Source of the DNA: a virus
Direction: 5' to 3' (one strand)
DNA length: 64,000 nucleotides
Virus record (IMG/VR): IMGVR_UViG_3300040771_000271
Coordinates: 1-64,000 of that record
Shown here: one piece after another, positions 341 to 45,500 of the stretch
How positions within the stretch are numbered: position 1 is the stretch's first letter
How the letters are laid out: every line of letters starts with the position of its first letter
Made by a program: the position numbers and the translations under genes
Notes under the pieces: model-generated
What the model was told of the DNA's origin: nothing
The model's input: only the letters and a program-made list of their open reading frames with translations
Database searches by the model: none

Positions 341-589
341 TTAAAGTTTTGCTAAAATATTTTGCTTAACAATAACTAAATACTCTTTACCTTCATGGTT
401 TAAAACTGTGCCTGAATTTTCAGATACTTTTACTACATCTCCTGATTTTAAATAGCTTTTTACATCCTCACCTAATGAAATAACTTTAACTGTGTTATTA
501 AATATTTTTTCCGTACTTACAGTTATACCTCCAACTTTATTGTCTTCAAGTATTTTCTCTACTATTATTCTTTCGCCGAATGCCTTCAT
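341..589 (-). CDS. groES: GroES-like co-chaperonin (Cpn10)
   Basis: This 82-residue protein matches the Cpn10 pattern: N-terminal GERIIVEKI, then GG-I-V (mobile-loop side), a central VKVISLG strand, SGDVVKVSENSG, and a C-terminal EGKEYLVIVKQNILAKL like the GroES EEYLIMREDDILA segment. It is a little shorter than host GroES (about 90-97 residues). It would cap a GroEL ring, and a GroEL gene lies at 15462-17030 in the opposite, late-strand module. The start at 589 overlaps the stop of the upstream 53-residue gene as ATGA, suggesting translational coupling. It is the last early gene before the inverted-repeat region. Confidence 0.85.
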   Translation of the reverse strand: MKAFGERIIVEKILEDNKVGGITVSTEKIFNNTVKVISLGEDVKSYLKSGDVVKVSENSGTVLNHEGKEYLVIVKQNILAKL

Positions 590-3021: not shown

Positions 3022-3741
3022 TTAAGTAATATCTTTATTTTTTATATACCTCCATATATACCCATGTCCTGTTTTATTTTTGTTGTTACAGCAACTTTGT
3101 ATACTTTCTTTACTTATATTTAAAGTTTTAGCTGCTTCTATTACAGAATCCCATTTTTTAATAAAATTTCCATTTAATTCAAACTGTAAAACTTTTTTCT
3201 TTTTGGGACTGTTAATAGAAATTTTTTGTTTAGTAGACTCTTTATGAGGTTGTCCTTTTCTACCTAAATTACCTAATTTAGCTATCGAAAGCTTTTCTTT
3301 TTGCTCTTTAGTCCATTTTCTATTTTTACTACTTTTTGAAATACTCTCTCTCCCTTCTTTAGACATAGGCTTATTTAATTTCCACAACTCATTACCAAGC
3401 ATTCTTTTTCTTAATTTTTCCTTTTCTTCCTCAGACCTAATCCTACCTATTGACGGCTTACCAACTATTTTTTCATTGTTAAAATAACATTCATTATTAT
3501 CTAAAAACCACTGCTCTATTTTTTGTCTGTATTGCTCAGGTACTGTTATTAGATACTCTATATGGAAAGACTCTTTTCCATATTTATTATAAGATCTCTG
3601 CATCTTAAGTGAATGATGTTTATTAGCTTTTAAATCTTTAAAGTGTCTTCTTATTCTATCTTTTATAACTATAGATGAACCTATATAAATTTGAGAAGTA
3701 ATATTATTTGTTATTTTATAGATTATACAATCTCTATTCAT
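3022..3741 (-). CDS. GIY-YIG homing endonuclease with NUMOD3/NUMOD1 DNA-binding modules
   Basis: The 239-residue protein starts with a GIY-YIG nuclease domain: IYKITN at 7-12, YIGSS at 19-23, a basic helix with candidate catalytic Arg (IKDRIRRH, 26-33), then NKYGKESFHIEYL. The middle carries NUMOD3-like repeats (SKEGRESISKSSK, HKESTKQKIS). The C-terminus is a NUMOD1-like module (VLQFELNGNFIKKWDSV, AAKTLNISKESI, GYIWRY). Such enzymes nick or cut an allele lacking the insertion. The ATG overlaps the stop of the upstream pyrophosphohydrolase-like gene by 8 bases and that gene looks complete, so this is a free-standing insertion. Confidence 0.93.
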   Translation of the reverse strand: MNRDCIIYKITNNITSQIYIGSSIVIKDRIRRHFKDLKANKHHSLKMQRSYNKYGKESFHIEYLITVPEQYRQKIEQWFLDNNECYFNNEKIVGKPSIGRIRSEEEKEKLRKRMLGNELWKLNKPMSKEGRESISKSSKNRKWTKEQKEKLSIAKLGNLGRKGQPHKESTKQKISINSPKKKKVLQFELNGNFIKKWDSVIEAAKTLNISKESIQSCCNNKNKTGHGYIWRYIKNKDIT

Positions 3742-4417
3742 GTTCTTGAATCCATAGTTGGAGTTCAGCTAAAGCATTCCATGCAACATGATATTGATGA
3801 GGTAAACCGCTTTCTGAGTCTTTACCTTGTCCTAATCTGTGTCTTAATCCTGCATCTGCATAAGTTTTACTGCCTCCTTCAACCCTTTTAAAATTTATAA
3901 AATCTTTATCTGTTTCTTTATATTTTTTATGCCCATATTCTGAACACATTACTATTGCTTCCAATGCTTTTGGAAACTGTTTAAATAATAATGATATTTG
4001 GGGTTTGTTTTTGTTTAACTTAACACCTTCTGTTTCTTTTATTCCCTCAACTTTGTTTAAATTATCAATAATTCTTTCTTCTGTAATTATTTTAGTAACT
4101 TCCTCTAGATTTAAATTTTTGTCATTTAAGTACTTAGGGTTGTATGTAAATATTTTACTTTCTTTAGGATAAAAAGAAAATCCTGTAGTAATTTCATCTA
4201 CAAGAAACTCTAAATCAGCTCTACCTCCATTATTTTCTTGATGTTGTTCTGCTTCTTTTAATAAATCCTCTGTTTTATTTGTTTTCGGCGAATTATAAAA
4301 AACATCAAGTCCTTTTATAGAAACAGTAGTATTGTCATTAATTAAACTTACTATTTCTTCTCTAGTCTTACTTTCATTATTAAAAAAGTATTTGAACCCA
4401 TCTCCTTTAAATTCCAT
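3734..4417 (-). CDS. dATP/dGTP diphosphohydrolase-like protein (DUF5664 type, MazG-like fold)
   Basis: The 227-residue protein carries its recognisable domain in the C-terminal half: KPQISLLFKQFPKALEAIVMC, then YGHKKY, a K-x-F-x-N-F stretch, and a terminal GLPHQYHVAWNALAELQLWI. This is the DUF5664 pattern of phage dATP/dGTP pyrophosphohydrolases (helical, metal-binding His/Glu/Asp). The N-terminal 100 residues are less conserved and look like a separate regulatory or substrate domain. It would hydrolyse or rebalance deoxynucleotides during replication. It is followed by a homing endonuclease gene that overlaps its final codons. Confidence 0.75.
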   Translation of the reverse strand: MEFKGDGFKYFFNNESKTREEIVSLINDNTTVSIKGLDVFYNSPKTNKTEDLLKEAEQHQENNGGRADLEFLVDEITTGFSFYPKESKIFTYNPKYLNDKNLNLEEVTKIITEERIIDNLNKVEGIKETEGVKLNKNKPQISLLFKQFPKALEAIVMCSEYGHKKYKETDKDFINFKRVEGGSKTYADAGLRHRLGQGKDSESGLPHQYHVAWNALAELQLWIQEHE

Positions 4418-4418
4418 A

Positions 4419-4673
4419 TTAATCGTTATTTTCTGAGTAAAAACTTAACCCTTTATTATACCACCCACTTCCAGCTAATATAAATTTTTTATCTCCTTTA
4501 AAATACTCCATCCAAAAGTCCCAATCCCATCCATTAGAATCAAAATTACCTTGTTCTAATCCTTCACTTTGCAGATATAAATTTACTTCTTCAGGAGATA
4601 TTAATACATGTGAATTTGTTACAGTTATTTCTCCACTTAACACTTTATCTATTTCTATTTCAAAATCTTCCAT
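4419..4673 (-). CDS. hypothetical acidic protein, 84 aa
   Basis: This 84-residue, strongly acidic protein has a Trp/aromatic-rich centre (NGWDWDFWMEYF, about 46-57) and a terminal GSGWYNKGLSFYSEN. It sits between tRNA-Met (20 bases upstream) and the pyrophosphohydrolase-like gene (one base apart), so it is probably transcribed with the tRNA from the promoter at 5037-5072. Small acidic aromatic proteins of phages are often inhibitors or DNA mimics, but nothing here proves such a role. Confidence 0.6.
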   Translation of the reverse strand: MEDFEIEIDKVLSGEITVTNSHVLISPEEVNLYLQSEGLEQGNFDSNGWDWDFWMEYFKGDKKFILAGSGWYNKGLSFYSENND

Positions 4674-4692
4674 TTTTATTGTTTTAATTTAG

Positions 4693-4766
4693 TTTCCGCA
4701 ACAGGGCTCGAACCTGTGACCTGAAAATTATGAGTTTTCTGCTCTAACCAACTGAGCTATGCGAAA
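4693..4766 (-). tRNA. tRNA-Met (anticodon CAT)
   Basis: A complete 74-nt cloverleaf lies on the minus strand. The acceptor stem pairs TTTCGCA with TGCGGAA (one G-U) and the D arm contains AGCTCAGTTGGTTAGAGC. The anticodon stem GAAAA/TTTTC presents loop CTCATAA (anticodon CAT), and the T arm is ACAGG-TTCGAGC-CCTGT with discriminator A. CCA is not encoded. The anticodon CAT could also be lysidine-modified for Ile AUA codons, which are abundant in this genome; initiator versus elongator identity was not resolved. Confidence 0.93.
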
Positions 4767-5032
4767 GGTTTGACAGGTTGCACGTTTGTAATCTAAGTCT
4801 ACAGTACTGTCCCTAATATTGCGTTATTAGACTCTCCATCCACGAGTCCTCTCTACTCCGATGTCTTTCACTTTGCTACAAGAGAATCAAGTGAATGTTA
4901 TTTTTAATAAAATAAGACTTGTGGTCACTCGCTCCACATTACCTGCTGTTTTAAAGTTTATTTTCTATTACTAGATACACCCCATACAGGTTACTAAAAA
5001 GGGGAAGAGTGTTTTTAACTTGTCTTATTTAC
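4767..5032 (-). ncRNA. candidate structured non-coding RNA of about 265 nt upstream of tRNA-Met
   Basis: Between a strong leftward early promoter (5037-5072) and tRNA-Met there is no open frame longer than a few codons, yet the sequence is full of inverted repeats. On the minus strand these include CCCC/GGGG (about 5000/4980), GTGG/CCAC around 4930-4942, CACTT/AAGTG, GACTC/GAGTC around 4832-4850, CTAATA/TATTAG (4812-4830), and long-range AAGTCT/AGACTT. G+C content is above that of the flanks. The transcript would run into the tRNA, which would be cut from it. Phages often place large non-coding RNAs next to tRNAs, but this matches no family I know. Confidence 0.6.
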
Positions 5033-5036
5033 TATG

Positions 5037-5072
5037 CAAATATAATACTTTTATTTTAAATATGCAAATTTA
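5037..5072 (-). promoter_or_regulatory. early promoter, leftward, for the structured RNA/tRNA-Met unit
   Basis: On the minus strand, -33 box TAAATTTG (5065-5072) and -7 box TATATTTG (5037-5044) are exactly 20 bases apart. The -33 box starts directly after the stop codon of the 151-residue gene (5074-5076). Expected transcription start is near 5032, so the first product is non-coding. Confidence 0.85.
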
Positions 5073-5073
5073 T

Positions 5074-5529
5074 TTAGTAACTTAATAAACTTTGCAACTC
5101 ATCTAGCTGTTCTTGACTAACATCTTCTTGCATTTCTTGTTCCTCATTCCATTCAATAAAAGCGTAAATAAAACTATGATCGTAATCTATACCTTGTGGA
5201 TATTCTTTTAGAAAATGTTTAATCCTATTTTCATCTATAATAATTTCAAAAGTGTCTTCTGTCATATCTCCACAAACTTCTGAATGTTTGCCCCAAATCT
5301 CTCCAAAATAAACTTCTTTGTCTAATAAAATTTCTTTAATTCTTAAAGCATTATTAAGTGGTAAAATTCTTCTTTCACCAACACTTCCACCTCTTCCTTC
5401 CCAGCCTATTTGAAGTAAAATAAGATTATCTTCTTTTAACTTAACATTGTTACATTCTTCAACAATATCTGATAATAATAAGAATGCGTCTCCTACTATA
5501 ATTCCGTCTTTTTTATATTCTATTTTCAT
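5074..5529 (-). CDS. hypothetical protein, 151 aa
   Basis: This 151-residue acidic protein has alternating strands and helices: MKIEYKKDGIIVGDAFLLLS, LILLQIGWEGRGGSVGERR, EVYFGEIWGKHSEVCGD, and a Gln/Glu-rich tail (NEEQEMQEDVSQEQLDELQ). It is separated by 9 bases from the PhoH gene upstream on the minus strand and is probably in the same operon. I do not recognise the family; the C-terminal tail resembles flexible protein-interaction tails. Confidence 0.65.
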   Translation of the reverse strand: MKIEYKKDGIIVGDAFLLLSDIVEECNNVKLKEDNLILLQIGWEGRGGSVGERRILPLNNALRIKEILLDKEVYFGEIWGKHSEVCGDMTEDTFEIIIDENRIKHFLKEYPQGIDYDHSFIYAFIEWNEEQEMQEDVSQEQLDELQSLLSY

Positions 5530-6240: not shown

Positions 6241-6660
6241 TTACAAATCTTTTTGTAAATGTTTTGAGTAAATAGTTGCTTTTATCCAGTAGTTTAAACA
6301 TTTAGGGTCTGTTAATGCTCCACTACAAATGATTTGTTGTGTCTCTCTGTATGTAGTTTCGGCACGAGAAAAAGTAAAAAGCAAAATTTCTTTCTCATAT
6401 TTCATACCTTCTTTAATAAGTTTTTTTAATTCTATAGAACTTGAACAGTATGTTTGCCACGAATATTGCCCTTTACTTGTACCTTTTTTTGCGCCACTTG
6501 TATAATTAGGTTTCCACATATACTTTTTTCCAAAATAAAATCTTCCGTCTTTTAGGGTAATCTTATATACGAACGCAAAAGAATTTTTTGGTGTTTTATC
6601 TATGTGGTCTACTATTTTACCTTGATATACCCAAGGAACTGTTTGTCTTTTTACTCCCAT
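6241..6660 (-). CDS. GIY-YIG-like nuclease domain protein
   Basis: This 139-residue protein has FAFVYKITLKDGRFYFGKKY (about 28-47), which fits the two strands of a GIY-YIG domain (VYKI and YFGKK replacing YIG). A basic region (PNYTSGAKKGTSKGQYSW), a Tyr/Cys-Ser segment and a Glu-containing helix (SRAETTYRETQQII) follow. It lacks NUMOD-type DNA-binding modules, so it is either a compact nuclease or a diverged homing endonuclease. The start overlaps the stop of the 48-residue gene upstream. Confidence 0.6.
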   Translation of the reverse strand: MGVKRQTVPWVYQGKIVDHIDKTPKNSFAFVYKITLKDGRFYFGKKYMWKPNYTSGAKKGTSKGQYSWQTYCSSSIELKKLIKEGMKYEKEILLFTFSRAETTYRETQQIICSGALTDPKCLNYWIKATIYSKHLQKDL

Positions 6661-13787: not shown

Positions 13788-13814
13788 TCTGCTTTAAACT
13801 ATGATAAAATTTTG

Positions 13815-13888
13815 CTGATTTGAAAGGACTCGAACCTTTAACCTAACGATTAACAGTCGTTTGCACTAACCAATTGTGCTACAAATCA
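13815..13888 (-). tRNA. tRNA-Asn (anticodon GTT)
   Basis: A complete 74-nt cloverleaf lies on the minus strand: acceptor TGATTTG/CAAATCA (7 bp perfect), D arm with AATTGGTTAGT, anticodon stem AACGA/TCGTT enclosing CTGTTAA (anticodon GTT), T arm AAAGG-TTCGAGT-CCTTT, discriminator G. CCA is not encoded. Asn AAC/AAT codons are very common in the AT-rich late genes, so the tRNA fits translational support. Confidence 0.93.
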
Positions 13889-14162
13889 ATAATAAAAAGC
13901 TGTGTAAAAGTTCTCGGCTCAACTAACAGCTTTAGGCTCAAAGATACTATCTGAGAGGGGGATACACCGAAATAATTTTAAACTTCTGTTCCGCCGTTTA
14001 ATCTAAATACCATCAAAATCATTTTTCATATTGTCTATTTAAAGTACAAATATAAGAATAAGTTTTTAAATAAAAAAATAAATTAAACATTAATTTCACT
14101 AGTTATCTAAACTTTAACATAATAAAGCCCCAAATTAATGAGGCTTAAAGGTATTCAACAAT
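13889..14162 (-). other. non-coding stretch: leader of the tRNA-Asn/primase transcript and terminator of the upstream gene
   Basis: No gene is supported. A -7-like box TATATTTG (minus strand; CAAATATA at 14047-14054) lacks a good -33 box, being preceded by a T-rich tract. Downstream on the minus strand is a possible 8-codon leader peptide (ATG at about 14029). After it comes an 8-bp hairpin AAAGCTGT/ACAGCTTT (13926-13933 with 13896-13903) with T-run, immediately ahead of tRNA-Asn. The terminator at 14125-14146 is annotated separately. AT-rich sequence around 14055-14100 shows nothing else. Confidence 0.5.
14125..14146 (-). terminator. terminator hairpin downstream of the 84-aa gene
   Basis: On the minus strand AAGCC (14146-14142) pairs with GGCTT (14129-14125), with a further weak CC/GG extension, and is followed by TATTATG. 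It lies 17 bases after the stop codon of the leftward gene at 14163-14417 and closes that unit before the tRNA-Asn promoter. Confidence 0.55.
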
Positions 14163-14581: not shown

Positions 14582-14953
14582 TTGGCTTTACCAGAAACTC
14601 ACATAAGTAAATGTAAATATAATAACGAGATTGATATGGTAGACACTATATTAACAGTTTATAGCACTATAAAGTTTAAGGGTAAAGACAGGTTAAGAGA
14701 TTTTGAAAAAAATATTTTGATTTATTACATAAGAAAAGGGCTTACAGATGAAACTTTAGAAATGATTTCTGAAGATTTAGATAAAAAGAAAAACTACTTA
14801 CATGGAATAAACAAACATTTAAGAGACAAAGGCTATTTAATTTCTTCAAAAACAAACTTAAGAAAATTTGACTTGAATGAAGATTTAAAAAAACTTAGAG
14901 ATTCTTTTATAAGTAAAAAAATAAAACTATATACATTAGTATTTCACAATTAA
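14582..14953 (+). CDS. small DNA-binding-like (winged-helix candidate) protein, about 123 aa
   Basis: The frame extends upstream to ATG 14495, but that start lies before the promoter. TTG 14582-14584, 19 bases after the predicted transcription start, is preferred, giving a protein beginning LALPETHISKCKYNNEI with Met for Leu. The body is helical and basic (FKGKDRLRDFEKNILIYYIR, GLTDETLEMISEDLDKKKNY, LHGINKHLRDKGYLISS). Two helices and a KGYLIS wing-like turn look like a winged helix. It is the first gene of the rightward unit and a candidate transcription regulator, for instance of late promoters; this is inference. Confidence 0.6.
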   Translation: MALPETHISKCKYNNEIDMVDTILTVYSTIKFKGKDRLRDFEKNILIYYIRKGLTDETLEMISEDLDKKKNYLHGINKHLRDKGYLISSKTNLRKFDLNEDLKKLRDSFISKKIKLYTLVFHN

Positions 14954-15449: not shown

Positions 15450-17030
<1,581 letters not shown>

Positions 17031-42519: not shown

Positions 42520-45500
42520 TGGAAAAACCAATAAAAAGTTTAAATATTCCTAAAAAAGGAATGTCTAGAAAAAACCCTTTAGAATTAGAAAATACAGAAT
42601 ACTCCTTTGCAATGAATGCCAACTTGGAAAATTCATCAGAGGATTTTTTCAGTTTATCTAATGAGCAGAGTAATTTACTAGCAACTAGATTTAAATTAGG
42701 CTTTAAATTTATAGGGGGTAAAGTAGATATTGATTCAAGTACAACTTTTGTATTTTTAACAAATCCTATTACAGGAGAAGGAGAGTTTGGAAAACTTGAA
42801 GGATTTGAGAATAACATACAAATAGCTCAACCTCTTGAAAATACAGTACAACAACCATTACAAACTTACACCACGTTACTTAATGACGCTTGCAACAATG
42901 GATTTAATTTTAATATTAATTTCCCAATAAAAAAGTGCGCAATAAAAAATGAAAAAGGAGTAAAAATAATATATTTTACAGATAATAGAAATGAACCACG
43001 TTACATTGAAATAAACAAACTATCTCAATACATAAATAGTCAAACTATAAGTTGTGGAGAACCTGTAGAAGAAGTTAAATGCTTCAATGCAGACAAGATG
43101 AGGATCTTTAAAAAGCACGCTATACCTGACTTAACGCCAACATCAATAGATCAAGGAGGGAGTCTAACAGAAGGAAATTATCAATTCCTAATAGCTTATT
43201 CAGATGAAGCAGGAAATGAGTTATCTCAATATTACTCACTAACTCAACAAGTATCAATATTTGATGAGAACAATACAGTTCAGGAAGCTTCAAGTGAAGT
43301 ATCTGAAAGAACAAACTTTGCTATAAAATTAAAAGTAGAAGGTTTGGACAAACAATACACTCACTATAAGATTGCAGTTATACAGAATACAAATAACGCT
43401 CAAACTTATTTTATAGAGGGTTTACATACTATTGACGACAACAGTGTAGTTTATACAACTCAACAAAATAAAAAGGCAACCACTCTAGTTGAACTTTTAA
43501 AAGTAAACACAGAAGTAAAAAAAGCCGAAGCATTGGCAGTGTCTAATAATGCTTTATTTTTATATGGACTAGAATCAGAAAAGGAGTGGAATTTACAACC
43601 TGTAGTAAACTTTATAGGACAATTTGCTAAATGGCAAACTTCTATAGCTTCTGAAAATTTCTACGAAAGTGGAGTAAACAACGGCAAAAAAGGATATAAC
43701 AGAGATGAAGTATATCCTCTAGCAATACAGTTCCAAACAAATACAGGGTATAAAACACCCGTATATCCTTTAATAGGAAGACAAGCTACAGAAGAAGACT
43801 TAACAGAAGTAGCAAGTAATAATAAAGATAGGTTATCCATAGAAGCAAACAAAGTAAATTGTACAACTACAGATAGATTAAAAAGATGGCAGTTTTATAA
43901 TGATGCAAAAGAGACGGGTGTATGTTTAAATGAAAATGTTCCTACTACAACTATAATAGAATCAATTGAAAAAACTTCAACTATTGAAAATGTTGTAACT
44001 ATTCTAGGAGCGACTTTTTCACTTTTTGACACACAAGAATATGAAAACCTTTCAGAACTTATTGAAGACAGTTTTGAAGAATGTTTTGAATATCCTTTTT
44101 GTGAATATCTAGATATTACAGACTATACAAATCAAAACAGTGTGCCTATATTTGATTCAGAATGTTCTGCACCAATATTATTATCTGAAAAATTATCTTT
44201 AAAAACAATTACAGGAGAAAATTCAGAAAAAATACCGAGTATATTCCCTTTAGATTATGCTAAAATAATACCTTTAAATTATTGTCAGGTCTCCGCTACA
44301 AGTCAAGTTGATGGAGCTCTAGTAAAAGATGAAGAGTTTAGGGAGTTGTACACTAAAGACATAGCATTTATTAATAAATTTGTATATAAAAGAGAGTCTG
44401 TATTCTCAAACACTATATGTAATACTCCAGAAGATATACAAAACATATCTGCAAATACACCTCCCCTATCTAGTCAGTACTTTATGTACTATGGAGCAAA
44501 CACTTCAAGCGAATTACAGACAACAAAAAATGCAACGTCTTTATCATCAGAATTTACAAATAAAATACATAAAGGGGCTTTATGGTACAAGGGAAACTTT
44601 GTAACTAAACAAGAATTAATTTTAGAAGTAACAAAACAAAAATTACCAGAAACACCAACAGATAGCATTTCTTCAGGAACTTTAGTAAGATTATCCCTTT
44701 ATAATAACTGTGGAACAGCAGCACCATTATATAGTCAAATTGTAGATTTATCAGAAGGAGAACAATACAAATTAAGGTTATCGGCAGGAAGCTTATTTAT
44801 AAAAGTAGGTGATAATGCAGAAACTAATTTAGGAGTATATAATAGTACAACTTTTATAGTAGCTATTGATTGTCCTATAAGACAAGTCACAGGGCAAGAT
44901 GATGTAACTAGATTTATAGTAGCTCCAACTAAAGGTTGTTTTTCTGTAGTGACTAGAGATATAACTTACAGCAGAGTTGATGTTACGTACACATCAATAG
45001 TTTTAAACAAAAGACAAACTTATACTTCAGAATGTAGTTTTGAATTACCACAAGTTCAAAATTGTATATCTTTACCTTATAAGAAAGGAACTTTTGCTTA
45101 CGTAGAAAGTTTAGAGACCTATCCAGACAATATAGAATTGTATAATTCTAAAGTATTAAATATACAACCTCAAGATTTTTCAGATTTAAATGAGAGGTTA
45201 GAATTTGAAGATTACTTTACCAATGGAACTATTTCAGGTAATTATAATTTAGTAGATAGTACAGATTTTAGATGTGAGCCTATAAGACATTTTAAGTTTC
45301 CAGATAATAAGGTAGCACCTTTTATGTGGGATAACCCACTTTCTAGTTTTTCAGCAAGTACTATATTTCCTTTAGGTATAACTATTGATGAGAAAGTTAT
45401 TAACACTTTTTTAAAAATTGCGGTAAAAAATAAATTAATAACTCAAGAACAAAAAGATAGTGTAGTTAGTTATGAAATATTTAGAGGAGATAGAACAGCT

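Follow-up and report, generated by a model that had tools for sequence, protein, structure and literature searches.

A putative two-module pseudoknotted RNA ahead of a tRNA in a Bacteroidota phage genome

It has long been recognised that the tRNA regions of phages give rise to RNAs of obscure role, among them RNAC and RNAD of phage T4, GOLLD and ROOL. What, then, is specified by a stretch of about 265 nt that stands directly ahead of a tRNA gene in a phage genome and encodes no protein? A preliminary description of this DNA had taken the stretch to be a single structured RNA with its own promoter; here we compare it with its relatives, describe the modules of which it appears to be composed and weigh the roles that they may have.

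Promoter, tRNA and gene surroundings

The DNA analysed, hereafter the window, comprises 64,000 nt (positions 1 to 64,000) of a virus record of 129,922 bases, IMGVR_UViG_3300040771_000271. In its major capsid protein the virus shares 45% identity with Cellulophaga phages phi4:1 and phi17:2, and we assign it to the Bacteroidota host type. The stretch in question lies on the minus strand downstream of phoH and extends for about 265 nt from a likely transcript start near position 5031 to a tRNA (Table 1) that carries a CAU anticodon and is called tRNA-Met, with tRNA-Ile2 as an identity that it may have instead. An 84-aa ORF (ORF84, the ORF at 4673) starts 18 nt past this tRNA and is followed by a dATP/dGTP diphosphohydrolase gene, while a 151-aa ORF upstream of the promoter has its stop at 5074. 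As had been described, the stretch ends in a tRNA and is without coding capacity, with 4–11 stops in each of the six frames, and no open frame is common to its homologues. Its GC content, which had been called distinct, is indeed raised (0.362 compared with a genome mean of 0.299) but only moderately so, since 6.4% of 265-nt tiles are equally high.

The 5′ side of the RNA stretch is formed by TTTG-N20-TATATTTG (5068..5037, minus strand), in which the two elements constitute what we take to be a good match to the Bacteroidota -33/-7 consensus. By itself the motif is only suggestive, its strict form (TTTG-N18-21-TAnnTTTG) occurring 21 times in the 130-kb genome as compared with 4–11 times in shuffles. 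Better evidence is provided by syntenic conservation, as the promoter sequence is almost identical at the syntenic place in a sibling phage, G052, whose capsid protein is 97% identical to that of the window.

Genes for a GIY-YIG/NUMOD1 endonuclease (3022-3741, minus strand) and a SegE-like GIY-YIG protein (6241-6660, minus strand) flank the RNA/tRNA/phoH region. Elsewhere the window encodes a GroEL-like chaperonin (15462-17030, plus strand; phrog_5725, E 4e-145; Pfam Cpn60), and its ORF at 341-589 (minus strand) resembles GroES by look.

Conserved helices in modules A and B

The minimum free energy (MFE) of the minus strand is unremarkable, at -51.9 kcal/mol compared with a shuffled mean of -52.2 (z 0.08), and the plus strand gives a z of 0.18; with such values MFE is useless as evidence of structure here. 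That it is no better than in shuffles would suit intergenic sequence that, in a genome rich in AT, arose by chance or is free of selection. Similarly, the six nested inverted repeats of the preliminary description do not survive, their number being not above chance and the helices interleaving as pseudoknots. It is the comparison with relatives that makes the structure evident, and it divides the stretch into a 5′ half, module A, and a 3′ half, module B.

For module A, blastn matched 107 nt of the 5′ half to Cellulophaga phage Calle_1 (72.7% identity, E 4e-5), in which the copy is unannotated DNA within a tRNA array, and a pattern scan yielded a third copy in the viral contig L203. The covariance model R1, built from these three copies, scores them at 131.6 (window), 127.8 (Calle_1) and 127.5 bits (L203), all three being in the model, and gives 56 bits (E 1.8e-9) to a divergent copy in G052 that was absent from its training. 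One set of interleaved helices, from the closing helix a to f, can be drawn for all four copies, in which c/d and b/f are pseudoknots. Helix a takes the forms AAGAC/GUCUU, GAUCUU/AAGAUC, UAAAGU/ACUUUA and AAAACU/AGUUUU across the copies; in the homologues helix c appears as AGGC/GCCU, CGGC/GCUG and CGGG/CCUG, and helix d as ACACG/CGUGU, AUACG/CGUAU and AACUA/UAGUU. For each of these three helices, only the true assignment of strands (1 of the 24 possible, strands placed by eye) gives full pairing. Helix b shows double changes in one homologue, G052, and the covariation of helix e is slight, 6 of 24 permutations doing as well; helix f, invariant in three copies and with 4/5 pairs in G052, shows no covariation. 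Over the model alignment, which leans to the model structure and holds 4 copies from few lineages, 92.5% of cells pair and 11 of the 20 modelled pairs show a double change, a count reached by 0/500 shuffles. Sliding the partners lowers the pairing to 29–47%.

Module B is 79% identical to the DNA directly before tRNA-Met in the contig L003, and a further copy is present in L205. A second covariance model, R2, was built from these copies and that of the window, and it alone found three diverged copies (L004, L005 and L006; E 4e-8 to 1e-6) in contigs that rank among the closest phoH relatives, so that B is found in the window and five other viral contigs. Its helices g and h interleave in an H-type pseudoknot, which is followed by hairpin j and a closing helix k. 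In five lineages helix h reads UCUCU/AGAGA, UCAGG/CCUGA, UGUAA/UUACA, UGAAC/GUUCA and UCAGA/UCUGA. This helix lies outside the search model R2, and its strands were placed by eye; taken alone and placed freely, it is not significant in most sequences (p 0.03–0.39), and the cross-pairing test between lineages (Table 1) is decisive where this test is weak. Helix k is replaced by GAGAU/AUCUC, GAGAG/CUCUC and GUGGU/ACCAC in homologues. In the model alignment of B, again leaning to the model structure and made up of 6 copies from few lineages, the proportion of paired cells is 91.6% and a double change is seen in 17 of 20 pairs, a count that none of 500 shuffles reaches; the strands of the cross-assignments were likewise placed by eye.

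By these comparisons the pseudoknotted structure is conserved. Compensatory changes have arisen in two unrelated homologue sets, the shuffles fall short in both, slid controls for A and B together pair in only 29–50% of cells, and the members found by the models have E-values of 1e-6 to 1e-9, all of which speaks against a chance origin, an explanation that we consider very improbable. The stems covary in relatives and the homologues share no open frame, so that neither outcome named beforehand as refuting it was seen, and the earlier proposal, which placed a structured non-coding RNA some 265 nt long before tRNA-Met and under a promoter of its own, is borne out.

Table 1. Features of the RNA locus, of module C and of the tRNA array of Calle_1; coordinates are those of the window unless stated
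Feature	Position	Strand	Basis or remark
-33 element TTTG, Bacteroidota-type promoter	5065..5068	-	Sequence; kept with the -7 box in sibling phage G052
-7 element TATATTTG (TAnnTTTG)	5037..5044	-	Sequence; identical in G052
Module A, ~119-nt pseudoknotted RNA domain	4911..5029	-	Covariance model R1, 131.6 bits; homologues; covariation
A helix a, AAUAAGAC (5′ strand) with GUCUUAUU	5022..5029 with 4918..4911	-	Strands differ in four copies, pairing kept
A helix b, CACU with AGUG	5008..5011 with 4929..4926	-	AUCU/AGAU in G052
A helix c, CCCC with GGGG	5001..5004 with 4983..4980	-	Pseudoknot with d; covaries
A helix d, ACCUG with CAGGU	4987..4991 with 4945..4941	-	Covaries
A helix e, hairpin with GUAA loop	4964..4975	-	Hairpin and loop in 4/4 copies
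A helix f, UGUGG with CCACA	4920..4938 (4938..4934 with 4924..4920)	-	Pseudoknot with b
Module B, ~136-nt pseudoknotted RNA domain	4767..4902	-	Covariance model R2; five homologues; covariation
B helix g, UUCACUU with AAGUGAA	4895..4889 with 4873..4867	-	28/30 cells paired, five lineages; 1/120 permutations
B helix h, UCUCU with AGAGA	4885..4881 with 4854..4850	-	25/25 cells paired; 1/120 permutations
B helix j, CUAAUA/UAUUAG closing ACGCAA loop	4813..4830	-	25/25 cells paired, five variants; 1/120 cross-assignments
B helix k, GACAG with CUGUC	4811..4807 with 4776..4772	-	1/24 cross-assignments reaches observed pairing
tRNA with CAU anticodon, called tRNA-Met	4692..4766	-	ARAGORN; Rfam RF00005, 65.8 bits
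Module C, short H-type pseudoknot and UAGUA hairpin	13894-13970	-	5′ of tRNA-Asn; homologues
tRNA-Asn	13814-13888	-	Module C precedes
tRNA-Arg(tct), Calle_1 array	1621-1692 of L236
Module A, Calle_1 array	1501-1620 of L236
Weak tRNA match, Calle_1 array	1430-1499 of L236

Several other candidates were set aside. Of the 120 matches to a loose pattern for A most were due to chance, and a pattern scan of genome contigs gave 27, none with the structure of A on inspection. Weak model matches in L347, L255 and L330 were dismissed as they look coding, and one at 92193-92306 of the phage's own genome was dismissed on checking, as was 14647-14764 of phi4:1/phi17:2, which is located within annotated coding genes in phi4:1. 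A pattern scan for B (AGTACTG..AACGTGCAAC) printed unrelated sequences besides L205 and L206.

In L203, module A is contained in a larger predicted fold (2073-2280; z -2.2) closed by AAGATACC/GGTATCTT, and a tRNA-like sequence (Rfam tRNA, 29.5 bits) follows this fold.

Independent occurrence and neighbouring genes

Sequence comparison indicates that A and B are two independent modules. B is found without an A detectable by R1 in L003, L004, L005 and L006 (L205 being outside this search), and A without detectable B in Calle_1, L203 and G052; most homologue records are fragments, and for the short ones the absence of a module is to be read as provisional. Both modules keep close company with tRNAs. 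In Calle_1, tRNA-Arg(tct) on one side and a weak tRNA match on the other leave a space that A fills exactly. In the window and in L003, tRNA-Met comes just after B. In L006 the order is reversed, B beginning where tRNA-Met finishes, and in L004 and L005 it begins in this way at the 3′ end of tRNA-like sequences; in all three of these contigs B closes with a T run. L205 has B ahead of a partial tRNA-like sequence, which is followed by an HNH-like ORF. G052, by comparison, has the same promoter and A before the same diphosphohydrolase gene and no tRNA there, which shows that the RNA is not merely a tRNA leader and that tRNA-Met is dispensable for the combination of promoter and A. Where the preliminary description had one RNA, there are two modules that occur separately elsewhere.

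Two of these neighbourhoods have features of their own. Directly upstream of B in L005, about 200 nt are tRNA-like, with the ends TAGTGTG...CACACTA, a T-arm-like stem and a long insertion; ARAGORN calls nothing in this sequence, which is possibly an intron-containing tRNA. Past B in L205 (minus strand, ORF 4129-4635), a sequence resembling a tRNA 5′ half is followed by the HNH-like ORF and, further on, by one resembling a T arm; an insertion carrying an endonuclease may have split a tRNA here.

The varying contexts bear on the main rival explanation, a cis-acting leader by which A and B would control the processing or folding of the adjacent tRNA, or, in the manner of a riboswitch or attenuator, the downstream genes (ORF84 and the dATP/dGTP diphosphohydrolase). 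Such a role would fit the window and G052, in both of which the RNA has the promoter on one side and genes on the other and would occupy the 5′ region of an mRNA (ORF at 4673, diphosphohydrolase); G052, too, has a diphosphohydrolase homologue downstream. It fits poorly with the position of A, which Calle_1 has within a tRNA array and L203 ahead of other genes, with the location of B 3′ of a tRNA or tRNA-like sequence and ahead of a T run in L004–L006, and with the retention of A by G052 where no tRNA is left. Moreover, A is found upstream of unrelated genes in different phages, which argues against a single cis-regulated gene, and the hallmark of a riboswitch or cis-leader, a constant place upstream of the genes of one pathway, is not seen among the homologues, whose differing gene contexts argue against a riboswitch. 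On balance we regard a cis-acting leader as unlikely.

Proposed action in trans and comparison with known RNAs

The reading that we favour, with a probability of roughly 0.6, is that A and B make up a two-module pseudoknotted non-coding RNA of a Bacteroidota phage that acts in trans; its transcription, processing, trans action and target are what we infer from the comparisons above. The dedicated promoter would transcribe A and B together with tRNA-Met and the genes after it, and the ends of the modules would probably be defined by where transcription starts at the promoter, by helix a, which closes A, and by maturation of the tRNA. Cleavage by RNase P at the 5′ end of tRNA-Met would likely create the 3′ end of B, and processing would release A and B as stable RNAs. 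Once folded, these would most likely have a target in trans, be it a protein of the host or phage, the ribosome or RNA, as has been suggested for T4 RNAC and RNAD and other RNAs of tRNA regions.

A different origin would be a ribozyme or a mobile element akin to an intron (self-cleaving, or derived from group I), whether still active or a remnant, that passes from phage to phage in the company of tRNAs and homing endonucleases. The patchy distribution, the pseudoknots and the adjacency to tRNAs are compatible with this, as are the nearby GIY-YIG/NUMOD1 and SegE-like genes and the HNH-like ORF past B in L205. However, permissive Rfam searches returned no ribozyme or intron family, and no flanking exon or target repeat was recognised. 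The HDV fold has the strand order P1-P2-P3-P1'-P4-P2', from which that of A (c-d-c'-e-e'-d') differs: c' comes after d without an intervening P3 hairpin. The theta ribozymes, which are HDV-like and abut phage tRNAs in gut phages, some of which are thought to infect Bacteroidota, set a precedent for phage RNAs next to tRNAs being catalytic (PMC10879173). A and B resemble them as compact pseudoknotted RNAs abutting phage tRNAs; the theta ribozymes, however, cut at the tRNA 3′ end and have the HDV strand order, whereas A and B have neither that order nor a match to an Rfam ribozyme. We therefore consider a ribozyme or mobile element rather improbable.

For the trans-acting RNA that we favour, the nearest analogues in kind, by description only, are T4 RNAC and RNAD, small RNAs from the T4 tRNA region that are classed as late and have been validated by Northern blotting in T4 (PMC3014915, PMC9697503). 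The genomic position is RNAC/RNAD-like in Calle_1, L003, L006 and the window; A and B differ in belonging to phages of another host phylum, in being pseudoknotted and exchangeable and in that they can occur without tRNAs. Like GOLLD, a structured phage and prophage RNA often near tRNA islands with many members above 800 nt (PMC12286853), they are orphans located near phage tRNAs, G052 excepted; the stretch here is much shorter, at about 265 nt. ROOL, likewise found in phages and prophages near tRNA islands and containing multiple pseudoknots (PMC12286853), shares the tRNA vicinity, the pseudoknots and the orphan status, compared with which the modules here measure 119 and 136 nt; ROOL is further marked by a homo-oligomeric cage. 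Rfam 15 gave no match, GOLLD and ROOL included (window 4600-5100 at E<=10; homologue loci at E<=1; G052 loci at E<=2), in agreement with the initial view that the RNA is distinct from both, and tmRNA, riboswitch, group I intron and HDV-like ribozyme readings were also without Rfam support. No tmRNA was called at the locus in the window by ARAGORN or Rfam. In Calle_1 (MT732432.1), ARAGORN calls a tmRNA at 42950-43309 on the plus strand (L411:2950-3309), outside the tRNA array, and a tmRNA in this phage has been reported (PMC8776804).

Our literature search found no paper describing module A, B or the module C introduced below. Having compared them with RNAC/RNAD, GOLLD and ROOL, we propose that A and B represent families of orphan phage RNAs that are new, linked to tRNAs and modular in their organisation. 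As the modules are small (75–140 nt) and A is present in a cultured phage, Calle_1, deletion, Northern blotting and pull-down are feasible. If the modules act in trans, they could mean that Bacteroidota phages possess a compact and modular arsenal of RNAs overlooked by gene-based annotation.

A putative RNA island downstream of phoH

Our proposal places A and B in a putative island of exchangeable non-coding RNA modules downstream of phoH. A further candidate member, module C, is located 5′ of tRNA-Asn in the window, where its pseudoknot helix reads AAGCUGU/ACAGCUU, and has homologues in L003, L004 and G052, among which helix P2 covaries. At the second locus of G052 the promoter and C are kept and tRNA-Asn is missing; C begins about 10 nt past the -7 box there and ends in a T run. 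The differences between G052 and the window indicate that the island varies in RNA modules and tRNAs between close relatives. A tentative extension is that in this phage clade A, B, C and probably other short pseudoknotted modules are grouped in a cassette-like island and shuffled between phages like anti-defence genes; each module might serve as a trans RNA effector or decoy against host proteins, and the tRNAs might partly be processing signals.

Candidate RNA modules are also seen elsewhere. In L006, more than 100 nt separate the promoter downstream of phoH from tRNA-Met (6818), and in G052 (L405) candidates lie on both sides of A, one of them with the long inverted ends TTACTCTAT...ATAGAGTAA.
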